Shown here: one piece after another, positions 361-4,638 of the stretch | Layout: the number at the start of each line of letters is the position of its first letter | Position numbering within the stretch: the stretch's first letter is position 1 | From: Candidatus Zhuqueibacterota bacterium | Lineage (GTDB): Bacteria; Zhuqueibacterota; Zhuqueibacteria; Residuimicrobiales; Krinioviventaceae | DNA length: 44,413 nucleotides | Reading direction: 5' to 3' | Assembly: GCA_016929295.1 (NCBI GenBank) | Contig: JAFGJB010000129.1 | Span: 1 to 44,413 of the forward strand | The notes under the pieces: model-generated | What the model was told of the DNA's origin: nothing | Database searches by the model: none | What the model saw: the letters and a program-made list of their open reading frames with translations, nothing else | Position numbers and translations under genes: made by a program

Positions 361-1227
361 TCCAATAATTGGATCAACATTCAATGTGTCGGTACAACGT
401 CAAACACTTCGGCAATTGGTGCCAGAGTGAAAGTAAAAGCAAATATCAATGGAAATCCTGTCTGGCAATTGCAGGAAATATCGGGTCAAACGGGTTTTGG
501 CTCCCAGAACAGCCTGAATGTTGAATTTGGTCTGGGAGATGCAACGATGATTGATTCGATTCGAATCGAATGGCCTAGTGGCCTGGCCCAGGATTGGCTA
601 AATATAGCCGCCAATCAGTTCTTGACCGCCATTGAAGGCAATGATGTCATCCCTGTAGAATTGAGCAGCTTTACAGCGACGCTGGCTGGTAGAAATGTCA
701 TCCTTAAATGGACGACCGAGAGCGAGCGGAACAATTATGGTTTCGAAATCCAACGATATAAGGAATCAGACCAATCGTCGGTTAACATGTGGGAGAAAAT
801 TGGTTACATCCCCGGCAATGGTACCAGCAGTAAACCGCATAACTACACCTTTACCGATGATCATCTGGCAACATCAGGCATCTATCATTATCGGCTAAAG
901 CAGCTCGATACGGACGGCACATTTAAATATTCCCAGGAAATTAAGGTGGATTGCAGTGTGCCAACAAAGTACGACCTCAGTCAGAACTATCCCAATCCTT
1001 TTAATTCATCAACGACCATGAAGTACAGCATCATAAAAATAACAAGAGTCACTTTGAAAGTATATAATCTCAAGGGCCAAGAGATTGAGACAATCATTGA
1101 TGAACAACAAACCGCGGGAGAGAAGGAGGTGAAATGGACGCCAGAAGGATTATCAAGTGGAATGTATCTCTATAGACTGCAAGCAGGTCATTTTTCGAAA
1201 ACACGCAAGTTAATTTTGCTCAAATAA
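1..1227 (+). CDS. FG-GAP/VCBS repeat protein with ASPIC/UnbV domain and T9SS sorting tag (5' partial)
   Basis: The reading frame is open from base 1, so the true start and signal peptide lie outside the window. The visible 409 residues begin with calcium-binding-like VCBS repeats (DYDNDGDLDLFV and NNGDGTFTKI). An ASPIC/UnbV domain follows, seen as SGQTGFGSQNSLNVEFGLG and then WPSG and EG. Next comes a fibronectin-like segment around VELSSFTATL and NYGFEIQR. The end is a roughly 85-residue sorting domain with NYPNPFN, GMYLYRL and a basic terminus. Family knowledge: such proteins form beta-propellers on the surface or outside the cell, and the tag is removed during T9SS export. The substrate or ligand is unknown. 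A broken paralogue lies at 3108-4638. The stop codon abuts the left inverted repeat of the DUF1670 unit. Confidence 0.9.
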   Translation, partial: DLFVANLGDKNFLYANNGDGTFTKISDGALVNDESDSPCGSWGDYDNDGDLDLFVVNLGINNFLYANNGDGTFTKITEAIIVYDEECSNGCSWADYDNDGDLDLFVSNSGNNFLYKNNGNSNNWINIQCVGTTSNTSAIGARVKVKANINGNPVWQLQEISGQTGFGSQNSLNVEFGLGDATMIDSIRIEWPSGLAQDWLNIAANQFLTAIEGNDVIPVELSSFTATLAGRNVILKWTTESERNNYGFEIQRYKESDQSSVNMWEKIGYIPGNGTSSKPHNYTFTDDHLATSGIYHYRLKQLDTDGTFKYSQEIKVDCSVPTKYDLSQNYPNPFNSSTTMKYSIIKITRVTLKVYNLKGQEIETIIDEQQTAGEKEVKWTPEGLSSGMYLYRLQAGHFSKTRKLILLK

Positions 1228-1249
1228 GGAAAATCTTCCGGTAGGTTTT
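1228..1249 (+). repeat. Left terminal inverted repeat of DUF1670 unit
   Basis: It pairs with 3031-3052 (19 of 22 positions, with the 14-nt core at 1236-1249 perfect). The core is also reused as the 5' arm of the leader hairpin. Confidence 0.65.
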
Positions 1250-1322
1250 GATAAAAAGTTGGTTATTTCATGAAAATTATTTATGAAGTAACCGGAAGGA
1301 TTCACATCAAAACTTACCGGAG
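1236..1322 (+). promoter_or_regulatory. Leader hairpin covering the ribosome-binding site of the first DUF1670-like gene
   Basis: Bases 1236-1252 can pair with 1306-1322. All 17 positions pair if two G-U pairs are allowed, with a 53-nt loop. The 3' arm carries GGAGG at 1319-1323, the evident Shine-Dalgarno for the ATG at 1328. A further ACCGGAA at 1291-1297 lies in the loop. As DNA this is an inverted array of the TTCCGGT motif that an HTH protein could bind. As RNA it would hide the ribosome-binding site. Which applies is not decided by the sequence. Confidence 0.55.
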
Positions 1323-1327
1323 GATGA

Positions 1328-2152
1328 ATGTATCATACTCGGAGCAGTTCATACGATCGGATATTAGAAAAGACGCCGGAACAAATATTTGTCAATTCAT
1401 TACGACAAGAATTTGAGTTATCGCCGGCAGAGAGTCAAGGTATTCTAGAATTGGCCAAGCAATGTTTGTTTGGTCAGTCTCCACAAGCAGTAGGCAAGAT
1501 AAAGTTTATTTGTGCCTCGCAGCGTGCAAAACACGGCAAGCCGTTGAGTGAACAAGAGATGATCGAAGTGGAGTTGACTCTTGACAACGGTGTTGAAGAT
1601 TTGAATGTTCTGCGAGTTTCTGGTCCGAAAGCGCTTCGCCAGTTGAAAGTACTGCGTCTTAGTGAAGAGGCATGGGATCAGGATGGTTCTTTGACACAAG
1701 AAGATATAGCGCGTTTGTTGCAGGTAACCAGTCGCACAGTTCGCCAGGACATCCGCGAGTTGCAGGCTGATGGGAATTTTATTCACACCCGCGGCACCGA
1801 TCATGACATTGGCCGCAGCCTGTCGCACAAGAGCCGGATCATCGAACTCTACTTGACTGGCGATACGTACGATTCGATTATTCGCAAAAGTCGTCACAGT
1901 GCTTTTTCGATCAGACGTTATGTGATGAGCTTTGGTCGTCTGCTGCTGTTGTTGAATCACGGCATGGATGATGTGAAGGAGCTGAGCCGTCTGTTGGGTC
2001 AAAGCGAACGATTGACAGGGGAATATCTTGAGATATTTGAAAAATACAAGACGGGCGACAAGTGGCCGAAAGTTTATGTTGAGTTACTGGAGCAATTGAA
2101 GACGCTGTACCCCGCGAAAAAAAAATCAAAGGGGGACGGCGATGAAAACTAA
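1328..2152 (+). CDS. DUF1670-like triple helix-turn-helix protein, first copy
   Basis: 274 residues. I recognise it from memory as the family annotated DUF1670, whose function is unknown. After an N-terminal helical region (about 1-110), three HTH-like segments follow. They are LTQEDIARLLQVTSRTVRQ (about 121-139), a segment around HKSRIIELYLTGDTYDSI, and DVKELSRLLGQSERLTGEY near the end. There is no signal peptide and no catalytic nuclease motif. The start at 1328 is supported by GGAGG four bases upstream. The last 11 nt overlap the next gene, so the two are probably co-translated. The inverted repeats around the pair suggest a role in recognising element ends or in repression. That is inference. 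Confidence 0.8.
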   Translation: MYHTRSSSYDRILEKTPEQIFVNSLRQEFELSPAESQGILELAKQCLFGQSPQAVGKIKFICASQRAKHGKPLSEQEMIEVELTLDNGVEDLNVLRVSGPKALRQLKVLRLSEEAWDQDGSLTQEDIARLLQVTSRTVRQDIRELQADGNFIHTRGTDHDIGRSLSHKSRIIELYLTGDTYDSIIRKSRHSAFSIRRYVMSFGRLLLLLNHGMDDVKELSRLLGQSERLTGEYLEIFEKYKTGDKWPKVYVELLEQLKTLYPAKKKSKGDGDEN

Positions 2153-2954
2153 GGCTCTAAATCGATATGAATCAATACCTAAGCGAAGTTTTCGAAATTC
2201 TATAATTCGTTTATTGGAAGAAAACTACAAGTTGTTGGGCAGCCATAAAGTGATTGAGATGATCGCCGATGACATTGTGAATGTGCACAAAGAATTCTAT
2301 CCAAAGTTGGAAGAAGGGAGCTTTGGCCATATTGTCTGGCGGACGACCAAAGTGACAAATCGGAAGCCGAGCTACGGCACCAGAGCAGAAGACTATGAGG
2401 TTCAGACGGTGATACTGCCTTTGGTGACCGATGAAGATATTGACAATCGGATCAAAAGCCATTACTCGCATCCGAAGGAAGACGGCAGTGCCAATTATGA
2501 AAAACAGCAGGATCGGGACATAAAGGTGATGGCGCGGTTATGCAAAAGTGCAGCGGAGCAAGGTGGCTGGTTAACCGGGGCGGAGTTGAGTGTTATGTTG
2601 AATAGGTCGCTCGGTACAATTGGCCGGTATATGCGGATTTATCATGAGACACATAACGACATTTTACCGACCAAAGGGATGATGTTGGATCAAGGCAGCA
2701 AGCCGACGCACAAAGCGGCAATTATAGATCTTTATGAGCAAGGGTATCCGGAGCCGGACATTGCGCGGTTGACGAATCACACAATAGAATCGACGAGTCG
2801 CTATATCAAGGCTTATAAGAACATCAAGTTATTATTAGAAAAGAAATTTGGTATGATGGAGATTACTCGGATTACGGGCATGGGCCAAAGGACAATATAC
2901 CAATACCGAGATTTGATCATTCAGTATCATCCATCGCTAAAGGAGACAAAGTAG
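2142..2954 (+). CDS. DUF1670-like triple helix-turn-helix protein, second copy
   Basis: 270 residues and a diverged paralogue of the preceding protein with the same layout. An N-terminal region with GSHKVIEMIADDIV is followed by HTH-like segments WLTGAELSVMLNRSLGTIGR, a segment near HKAAIIDLYEQGYPEPDIAR, and MMEITRITGMGQRTIYQYR. The start at 2142 lies inside the end of the upstream gene and is preceded by GGGGG, consistent with translational coupling. The tandem paralogues may act as a heterodimer on the TTCCGGT motifs. No enzymatic residues are recognisable. Function unknown. Confidence 0.8.
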   Translation: MKTKALNRYESIPKRSFRNSIIRLLEENYKLLGSHKVIEMIADDIVNVHKEFYPKLEEGSFGHIVWRTTKVTNRKPSYGTRAEDYEVQTVILPLVTDEDIDNRIKSHYSHPKEDGSANYEKQQDRDIKVMARLCKSAAEQGGWLTGAELSVMLNRSLGTIGRYMRIYHETHNDILPTKGMMLDQGSKPTHKAAIIDLYEQGYPEPDIARLTNHTIESTSRYIKAYKNIKLLLEKKFGMMEITRITGMGQRTIYQYRDLIIQYHPSLKETK

Positions 2955-3030
2955 GACTTGATGAAGAGGTAGGGAATTCATAGATTGGGTTGTCGCGCGG
3001 CAGCCCAGACAGACCGATCTATTCCAAAGA

Positions 3031-3052
3031 AAAACCTACCGGAAATATTTCC
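3031..3052 (-). repeat. Right terminal inverted repeat of DUF1670 unit
   Basis: This is the inverted copy of 1228-1249. It lies 76 nt after the second DUF1670-like stop codon and 55 nt before the start of the broken FG-GAP gene. Confidence 0.65.
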
Positions 3053-3107
3053 TAAACGTAAATAGAATGCGAGTTAAAGAGTAGTTCTTTTTCCCATGAG
3101 GTATAAT

Positions 3108-4638
3108 ATGCGCCTAAAATTCATGTTTCCTTTTCTTTGTCTCCTCTTCTCCCTTTGTCCGTACTTGTCTTCGCAGGATCAATTTACAAAAATCATTGAT
3201 AGTGTTATTGCTCAAGATGAAGGCAATTCCTATGGATTGTAGCTGGATTGATTATGACAATGACGGCGATGTTGACCTGTTTGTCGCAAATATATTCAAT
3301 CAATCTGATTTTTTGTATACGAACAATGGCGACGGTTCTTTCACCAAAATATCCGCCGGCATTGTGGTGAATGATGCGGGCTATTCGCACGGCTGCAGCT
3401 GAAGTGACTATGATAACGATGGTGATTTGGACCTGTTTGTCACGAACATTGGAAATAACTTTCTGTATAACAACAACGGCGATGGCTCCTTTACAAAAGT
3501 ATCTGAAGGCATTGTTGTCAGCGATGGCGGCAATTCTTATGCAAGCTGCTGGGCGGATTTTGACCGAGATGGCTATCTGGACCTGTTCGTCGCCAATTCA
3601 GGCGGACAAGACAATGCTTTGTATTTGAATAGGGGCGATGGCTCTTTTGCCAAAATCACCACCGGCTATCTGGTGAACGATGCCCGCAATGCCTCCGGCT
3701 GCGGCTGGGCGGATTATGATAATGACGGGGATTCGGACATTTTTGTCGCGTATGAAGATGGCCCAAATATTTTGTATCAAAACAACGGCAATGAAAATCA
3801 CTGGCTCAACATCACGTGCATGGGCACGGCGTCCAATCGCTCGGCCATTGGCGCCAAGGTGCGAGCCAAAGCGCTCATCGGCGGAAAACCAGTGTGGCAA
3901 TTACGGGAAATCTCCGGTCAGACCGGTTTCGGCAGCCAGAACAGTCTGAATGTCGAGTTTGGCTTTGGCGATGCGGATATAATTGATTCGCTGGTGGTGG
4001 TGTGGCCCAGCGGCTTGATCCAGGTGTGGGAAGATATACAAGCGAATCAGTTCCTGACCCTCACCGAGGGGAGCGATGCCATTCCGGTCGAGTTGACATT
4101 GTTTACCGCTCACGTCAATGGGCACGATGTGATGCTGGAATGGATCACCGAATCGGAACGGAATAATTATGGATTTGACATTCAGCGCACCTCGGAACAA
4201 GCCTGGGAGAGAATCGGTTTTGTGCAGGGGCATGGGACGAGCGCGACGCGGCATGTCTATTCGTACAAAGACTCGGATGTGGCGCTCGGTTCCTATCGCT
4301 ATCGATTGCGCCAGATAGATACGGATGGCCGCTCTCGATATTCGCAAGAGCTGGAGGTTCAAATTGGGCCGGTGAGAGAATTCAGCTTGAGCCAAAACTA
4401 TCCCAATCCGTTCAATTCGGCCACGACGATTTTTTACGAGCTTGCCGAGGATAAGCACGTCACCTTGATCGTCTACAACGCTTGCGGACAGCAGGTGGCT
4501 AGGCTGGTAGATGAGCAGAAAAAGGGGGGACGTCATTTCGTGTCCTGGGATGCTGCAGAGCACCCGTCAGGACTCTATTTTGTCCGCTTCATAGCCGGGG
4601 AGTATTCGGAAACGATCAAAATGATGTTGTTGCGGTGA
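3108..4638 (+). pseudogene. Broken FG-GAP/VCBS-ASPIC surface protein with T9SS sorting tag
   Basis: The original start is ATG 3108, eight bases after GAGGT. It encodes a clear signal peptide (MRLKFMFPFLCLLFSL, cleavage near SSQ). Two lesions interrupt the frame. One extra base near 3236 turns the expected GNSYGCSW into an early stop at 3240. A TGA at 3400-3402 stands where the repeat expects Trp (GCSW-SDYDND). From 3403 to 4638 the frame is intact: VCBS repeats about every 52 residues, an ASPIC/UnbV domain (SGQTGFGSQNSLNVEFGFG), a fibronectin-like region and a sorting domain (NYPNPFNSATTI). TGA serves as a normal stop elsewhere in the window, so recoding is unlikely. Sequencing error remains possible for either lesion. 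It is a paralogue of the gene at 1-1227. Confidence 0.8.

Follow-up and report, generated by a model that had tools for sequence, protein, structure and literature searches.

Introduction

Several described systems each resemble, in part, the locus reported here. Tn7 is a large element that encodes TnsABCDE and inserts downstream of glmS, outside the gene itself, and members of IS200/IS605 use an HUH TnpA, make no target duplication and have imperfect palindromes and hairpins at both ends. In IS10, IS50 and IS200 a ribosome-binding site is sequestered at the outer end, and in known insertion sequences such an arrangement prevents activation by read-through. ISAjo2, which belongs to the recognised IS1202 family, is reported to target the dif/pdif sites of the XerCD system (PMC10132070).

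Here we describe a putative mobile element in a 44,413-nucleotide stretch of DNA of a Candidatus Zhuqueibacterota bacterium, the whole of which we call the window. The element resembles the classical DDE insertion sequences (IS3, IS4, IS630) in its size, its terminal inverted repeats, its short target duplication and the way in which its genes fill it, and it resembles insertion sequences also in the predicted sequestration of a ribosome-binding site at its outer end. Unlike the DDE insertion sequences, it encodes two paralogues made of helix-turn-helix (HTH) domains only, in which no DDE/RNase-H-like or other catalytic domain was detected. As with Tn7, insertion would be harmless, since it falls where a conserved coding sequence ends, but the element here enters the stop codon and rebuilds the stop. 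It shares with IS200/IS605 the imperfect palindromes and hairpins at both ends, but it is without an HUH/Y1 domain and has a target duplication, and it does not belong with that group. Compared with ISAjo2 (PMC10132070), it has a similarly precise short DNA target and keeps a fixed distance to it, yet its targets are the stop codons of type IX secretion (T9SS) sorting-domain genes, which encode secreted surface proteins, and not the dif sites of XerCD. Both of its genes are clear members of the DUF1670 proteins (PF07900). As far as the sources show, insertion-sequence-like elements are a known kind, and it is the missing recombinase and the stop-codon target that are apparently undescribed; in the literature on DUF1670, PF07900 and T9SS-targeted elements we found nothing relevant, with neither function nor mobility assigned.

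Boundaries of the element in the window

A sequence-only reading of this DNA had proposed that an inverted repeat encloses two overlapping multi-HTH DUF1670-like paralogues, which together might form an undescribed mobile element. Our repeat search recovered the inverted repeat, 20/23 complementary between 1227-1249 and 3031-3053, and both enclosed open reading frames match PF07900 and overlap by 11 bp (Table 1). The terminal motif is also present as extra inverted copies near 1290 and at 1306-1325. In a shuffle test, the score of the inverted repeat was reached in 0 of 500 Markov shuffles, while one of 400 same-geometry controls within the window reached it; the repeat taken alone is suggestive and only moderately unusual. 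Certainty about the repeat comes from the comparison, in which 26 gene pairs are flanked by the same terminal structure. The specific ends that had been proposed are indeed conserved in this comparison, but 1228 and 3052 lie a few bases too far in, the ends being at 1226 and 3059. The placement amid FG-GAP genes was likewise right for the upstream and downstream neighbours, except that the left end actually lies within the stop codon of the upstream gene. The stop-codon target in T9SS genes, the target duplication and the end hairpin were absent from that reading. The downstream FG-GAP/T9SS gene (3109-4638) is an apparent pseudogene, with a frameshift near 3230 and an in-frame TGA near 3400.

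Table 1. Features of the putative element and its insertion site, in window coordinates.
Feature	Position	Strand	Basis or remark
Complete mobile element (putative), 1834 bp	1226-3059	no strand	comparison with related elements
Upstream T9SS sorting-domain (CTD) gene, 3′ end = insertion target	925-1227	+	TIGR04183 on 925-1224
Left target duplication copy, AAAT (last Lys codon + T of stop)	1222-1225		geometry common to 16/26 elements
Left terminal 12-bp near-palindrome GGAAAATCTTCC	1228-1239		2 bp from duplication; repeat search and comparison
Left-end hairpin (predicted)	1233-1325	+	-44.8 kcal/mol, z = -10; equivalents in related elements
Gene 1, DUF1670 protein, 274 aa	1328-2152	+	PF07900 1.1e-46; AlphaFold2 model
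Gene 2, paralogous DUF1670 protein, 270 aa	2142-2954	+	PF07900 7.5e-48; AlphaFold2 model
Right noncoding end with own inverted repeats (about 2968-3040)	2955-3040	+	RNA fold
Right terminal 12-bp palindrome GGAAATATTTCC	3041-3052		repeat search and comparison
Distal spacer TAAACGT, 7 bp, palindrome to duplication	3053-3059		7-bp spacing kept in clade A
Right target duplication copy, AAAT	3060-3063		with AG (3064-3065) = original Lys + TAG stop

Related elements and their ends

DUF1670 was found in 14 of 82 genomes of the window's phylum, whose named relatives carry the candidate division label KSB1 in public records, almost without exception as two genes in tandem, and frequently at the end of a contig. 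Beyond the phylum, pairs occur in Bacteroidota (11/395 genomes) and Chloroflexota (4/251), and also in Ignavibacteria, Zixibacteria and Aerophobetes. Our comparison set consists of the 26 related gene pairs with both ends readable. The tabulated pairs have 12-bp near-palindromes at their ends (among them GGAAAATCTTCC, GGACATTTGTCC, CGACATTTGTCG, TATCAAATGACC, TGACAGGTGTCA and TGCCATATGGCA), with an inner extension that is clade-specific; these 12-mers were picked by eye from the inverted repeats, their boundaries being a matter of judgement, and were kept fixed in the spacing analysis. As in insertion sequences, terminal inverted repeats are kept among copies at different loci, here in 26 elements. 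The sequence-only reading had named homologous pairs without repeats as the case that would speak against it, and the tabulated pairs with two usable flanks all have the repeats, several homologous pairs that are decayed or lie at contig ends having been left out of this check. We rejected an intrinsic terminator as the nature of the repeats, given right-end hairpins without a T-run and palindromes at both ends in 26 elements.

The target duplication and the rebuilt stop codon

When we compared four bases at every combination of distances outside both palindromes in the 26 elements, we found an exact 4-bp duplication at fixed spacing in 16, with spacers of 2/7 in 11 elements, 8/2 in four and 7/2 in one, so that a target-site duplication, as expected of an insertion sequence, is present. 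The 8/2 elements follow the 2/7 rule in reverse, with a distal spacer of 8 bp; matches at the offsets 1/8 and 9/1 are for the most part these duplications shifted by one base, and 1/1 reflects bases common to the element ends. The duplication tracks the target: it is CGAT/CGAT in L069 and L158 and AGAT/AGAT in L034, with an Arg codon in each case, and ACAT/ACAT in L113 of the Chloroflexota. The duplicated bases are not just a fixed stretch of element sequence. Several other elements are off by one base or by a spacer base (L063, CGAT/CGTT; L160, AAAT/AAGT).

The junctions in the window read CTC AAA T/AA-GGAAAATCTTCC ... GGAAATATTTCC-TAAACGT/AAAT AG, the slashes marking the element ends. The present stop codon of the upstream gene, TAA at 1225-1227, takes its T from the host and its AA from the element, and the original stop (AAA TAG) is displaced to the far end. 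The same holds elsewhere: the first bases of the element, AA or AG, form the new stop for the host gene, and at sorting-domain insertions with a readable distal flank, AG, AA or GA after the distal copy completes a stop codon.

Altogether 21 elements adjoin the stop of a T9SS type A sorting-domain gene, the target being its last codon plus the stop, and this gene lies upstream of gene 1 in 12 cases and convergent beyond gene 2 in nine. The TIGR04183 cut-off was passed by all ten target genes tested, among them the upstream gene of the window (47.5 bits on 925-1224, cut-off 23); the remaining target genes were called from their translations by reading, those of L159 and L160 being frame-damaged. 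The host genome has at least 150 T9SS sorting domains, and therefore an exact match to a sorting-domain stop would be expected by chance about once per tens of thousands of random insertions. The other targets were AAATGA without a sorting domain (L045), ATTA (L035) and ACAT (L113).

Empty site, copy number and spread

An empty site, one of the marks of an insertion sequence, was found in a relative: joining the two flanks of the G076:C75 element gives a sequence that matches G075:C190:23079-23866 over its whole length at 86%. On the right, homology (92% over 231 bp) sets in precisely at the one AAAT copy, and on the left it weakens over the last ~50 bp, which have diverged; this target is of the non-CTD kind. 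We found no empty site for the window locus in nine relatives, nor for the CTD-type element of G076, the flanking genes being too divergent in both cases. The search for further copies and empty sites that the sequence-only reading had suggested thus yielded 26 related elements and one orthologous empty site, but the host genome itself proved to be single-copy, with no convincing second copies or solo ends and no shorter copies that keep the ends without the genes. Other genomes carry one or two copies each. Given at least 150 targets against one copy, copy number is limited by something.

In the gene 2 tree, which mixes phyla, the window protein groups with proteins of Bacteroidota (64-69% identity), apart from KSB1 proteins such as L038 and L045 (45-46%). 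Within families and genera the element is unevenly scattered, and some copies are decayed (G019:C253, L047, L060). The proposal of an undescribed mobile element is borne out by the conserved termini, the target duplication, the empty site, the patchy distribution and the discord between tree and phylum, and comparison across genomes shows that the element has spread horizontally. A viral or plasmid origin was rejected, since tblastn of gene 2 against 50,697 phage records and 72,556 plasmid records gave no match.

The DUF1670 proteins

Against the PF07900 profile (cut-off 25), the two window proteins score 159 and 163 bits. Genes 1 and 2 are distinct paralogues, and complete pairs in the closer clades score as one of each. 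Divergence at codon positions 1, 2 and 3 is about 0.3, 0.2 and 0.6 (13-24% at position 2 and ~60% at position 3), the pattern of two genes under purifying selection. With two such genes the element is no MITE, a class defined by having no coding capacity.

The AlphaFold2 models (pLDDT 76-78) consist of an N-terminal helix-helix-strand-strand region, a winged HTH and two further HTHs. The absence of a recognisable recombinase, as noted in the sequence-only reading, was confirmed: Pfam, NCBIfam and PHROGs returned no nuclease, transposase or recombinase domain, PDB sequences no catalytic family, and Foldseek against the PDB nothing below E = 0.01, its best matches being HTH, wHTH and cyclin-like transcription factors at low TM-score. 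The hidden catalytic fold that structure prediction had been hoped to uncover did not appear, AlphaFold2 and Foldseek giving HTH-type matches and no catalytic domain. A recognisable transposase with a catalytic domain, a further mark of an insertion sequence, was not found, the proteins matching HTH only. No catalytic match to Phage_integrase or Resolvase was obtained at E up to 1, there was a weak match to the resolvase HTH, and the weak HTH-type Foldseek matches include resolvase complexes; the pair does not qualify as tyrosine or serine recombinases. This negative result on a catalytic fold is only as firm as the models, whose pLDDT indicates moderate confidence.

Several polar residues are invariant in both paralogues (gene 2 numbering: R132, D183, H190, K191, H213, Y221 and Y255). 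In the models the D..HK segment forms a loop predicted with low confidence, which may serve as a DNA arm or as an active site. We considered a tyrosine recombinase on the strength of the pattern '[ST]HK...HS...RY', which has box II-like spacing, yet a Hin-type HTH fits equally; it was rejected, there being no H-x-x-R triad, a different predicted fold and no support from Pfam or Foldseek. The PDB match 8vd6 ('CAP repeat') was set aside as uninformative, reflecting generic HTH-like repeats.

In Chloroflexota, proteins of 1200-1400 residues end in a DUF1670 half (L105, 107-4135, minus strand; L106, 3036-6848, plus strand; L114, 354-4022, plus strand). This half is the N-terminal and winged-HTH part, placed at the C-terminus of regulators that we label SARP/BTAD-like from a reading of their N-terminal sequence. 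Such proteins suggest that the DUF1670 domain has also been recruited as an ordinary DNA-binding output domain, and they support DNA binding as its basic role.

End structures

The predicted left hairpin of the window element has an outer stem (1233-1252/1306-1325) and an inner stem (1259-1274/1280-1295), and the Shine-Dalgarno GGAGG of gene 1 (1319-1323) lies within the outer one. In the predicted folds of clade A, the Shine-Dalgarno or the start codon of gene 1 is paired with inner bases of the terminal repeat, and 9 of 10 elements have an energy below that of all 200 shuffles (z -4.3 to -10, from per-element folds). In clade B the pairing, of CCATAGGA with TCCTATGG, likewise takes in the start codon, and z is weaker (-1.5 to -4.2). 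Between the clades the paired letters change together and the pairing is kept. On these folds, the left end would hide the ribosome-binding site of gene 1 in a hairpin, while a transcript initiated within the element, beyond the outer arm, would be without the outer stem. The same hairpin bases form the third copy of the terminal repeat, for which a role as operator is equally possible. Several elements have a second structured region after gene 2 and before the right palindrome, with stem-loops but no T-run (2968-3040 in the window, 4085-4240 in L059 and 4790-4955 in L060).

How the element may move

The locus is almost certainly a mobile element with the ends and the target duplication given above, its mobility being read from the comparison of sequences. 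It is probably self-contained and insertion-sequence-like, with two paralogous multi-HTH DUF1670 proteins as its genes. Since the ends are accompanied by nothing but the DUF1670 pair, our best inference is that this pair makes up the recombination machinery of the element, either alone or together with a host partner. DNA cutting by the pair itself is a tentative proposal, to which we give a little less than an even chance, and we hold with the same reserve that DUF1670 could be a new recombinase class, with an undescribed active site, acting as a two-paralogue complex that inserts into a stop codon and rebuilds it.

If the pair is the machinery, the two proteins may bind the terminal palindromes as dimers and pair the ends, and the target may be recognised through their several HTHs. 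The comparison of sequences shows that insertion strongly prefers the stop codons of T9SS sorting-domain genes, cutting them between the T and the last two bases with a 4-bp duplication, and that the inserted end, starting with AA or AG, restores the stop. Cutting and joining could be carried out by the pair through an unrecognised active site, for example the invariant D-x-G-x(3-4)-[ST]-H-K loop together with the later His and Tyr residues; alternatively, the pair may recruit a host enzyme. The repeat copy at the start of gene 1 could allow autoregulation, and in a read-through transcript from the host gene the left hairpin would mask the ribosome-binding site, so that gene 1 would not be made. 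Several points count against this explanation: the presence of only one or two copies per genome despite at least 150 candidate target genes in the host, the window's own empty site not found in nine relatives, the non-CTD target and diverged left flank of the one empty site, the moderate confidence of the models, and the DUF1670 halves of large regulators, which would suit DNA binding better than catalysis.

That low copy number would also fit an element mobilised in trans by a recombinase or transposase encoded elsewhere, for which the DUF1670 pair would bind the ends, pick the target and repress itself. No catalytic fold was found, all the confidently modelled parts are HTH, and DUF1670 halves serve as the DNA-binding end of large regulators, all of which agrees with such a division of labour. 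We nonetheless think it unlikely, since the pair alone accompanies the ends across phyla with no obvious common companion gene, both genes are under purifying selection and gene-less shorter copies were not seen in the window's genome. Less probable still is site-specific integration with a circular intermediate, Tn916-like or exploiting XerCD, in which the 4 bp would act as the coupling sequence or core: the proteins have no domain of a tyrosine or serine recombinase, and the target's own codon stands on both flanks in L069, L158, L034 and L113, which is what a staggered cut and not a carried-over core would leave, even though the terminal palindromes resemble recombinase core sites and the unequal 2/7-8 spacers, the low copy number and the narrow target would suit such a route. 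Finally, multi-HTH proteins, palindromic sites and a third copy of the repeat where gene 1 begins might be those of two regulators kept by vertical descent and flanked by operator palindromes, controlling adjacent T9SS genes and not mobile at all, but this is scarcely credible given the original stop on the far side with its target duplication, a duplication that changes with the target, elements lying in either direction relative to the T9SS gene, the empty site, the unrelated contexts with Chloroflexota copies at other sites and a gene tree that mixes phyla.

With the DUF1670 pair as the probable core of a mobile element, PF07900, a family of unassigned function, becomes linked to DNA mobility in several phyla, and since ends, target and duplication are defined to the base, the activity of DUF1670 is directly testable. 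Should the pair do the chemistry, it would constitute a new recombinase class; should it not be catalytic, the element would be a rare example of DNA that looks autonomous but borrows its enzyme. The self-restored stop codon is an unusually precise way of avoiding harm at insertion. The end of the T9SS sorting-domain gene is among the most repeated coding motifs in these genomes, and a degenerate one for an element to recognise.

Variant copies

In one element, L040 (G061:C75), ~286 bp across the gene 1/gene 2 junction, at about 1895-2180 as counted on the reverse-complemented sequence, are inverted in place relative to sister elements; we found no inverted repeat at the breakpoints, and the inversion may be either real or an assembly artefact. 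A contig of an 'archaeon' MAG (L064) carries a clade-A element after a T9SS sorting-domain gene, which suggests mis-binned bacterial sequence. Among control genomes, Methanosarcina acetivorans has DUF1670 above the cut-off. A third clade (L039, L161 and L164) has TGCCATATGGCA-like ends with inverted flanks on either side, apparently within hairpins. The restored target of L039 is itself a hairpin, TTGAACTC-CTTCGG-AGTTCAA, with a UUCG tetraloop, and CTTCGG stands at both sides of the element.
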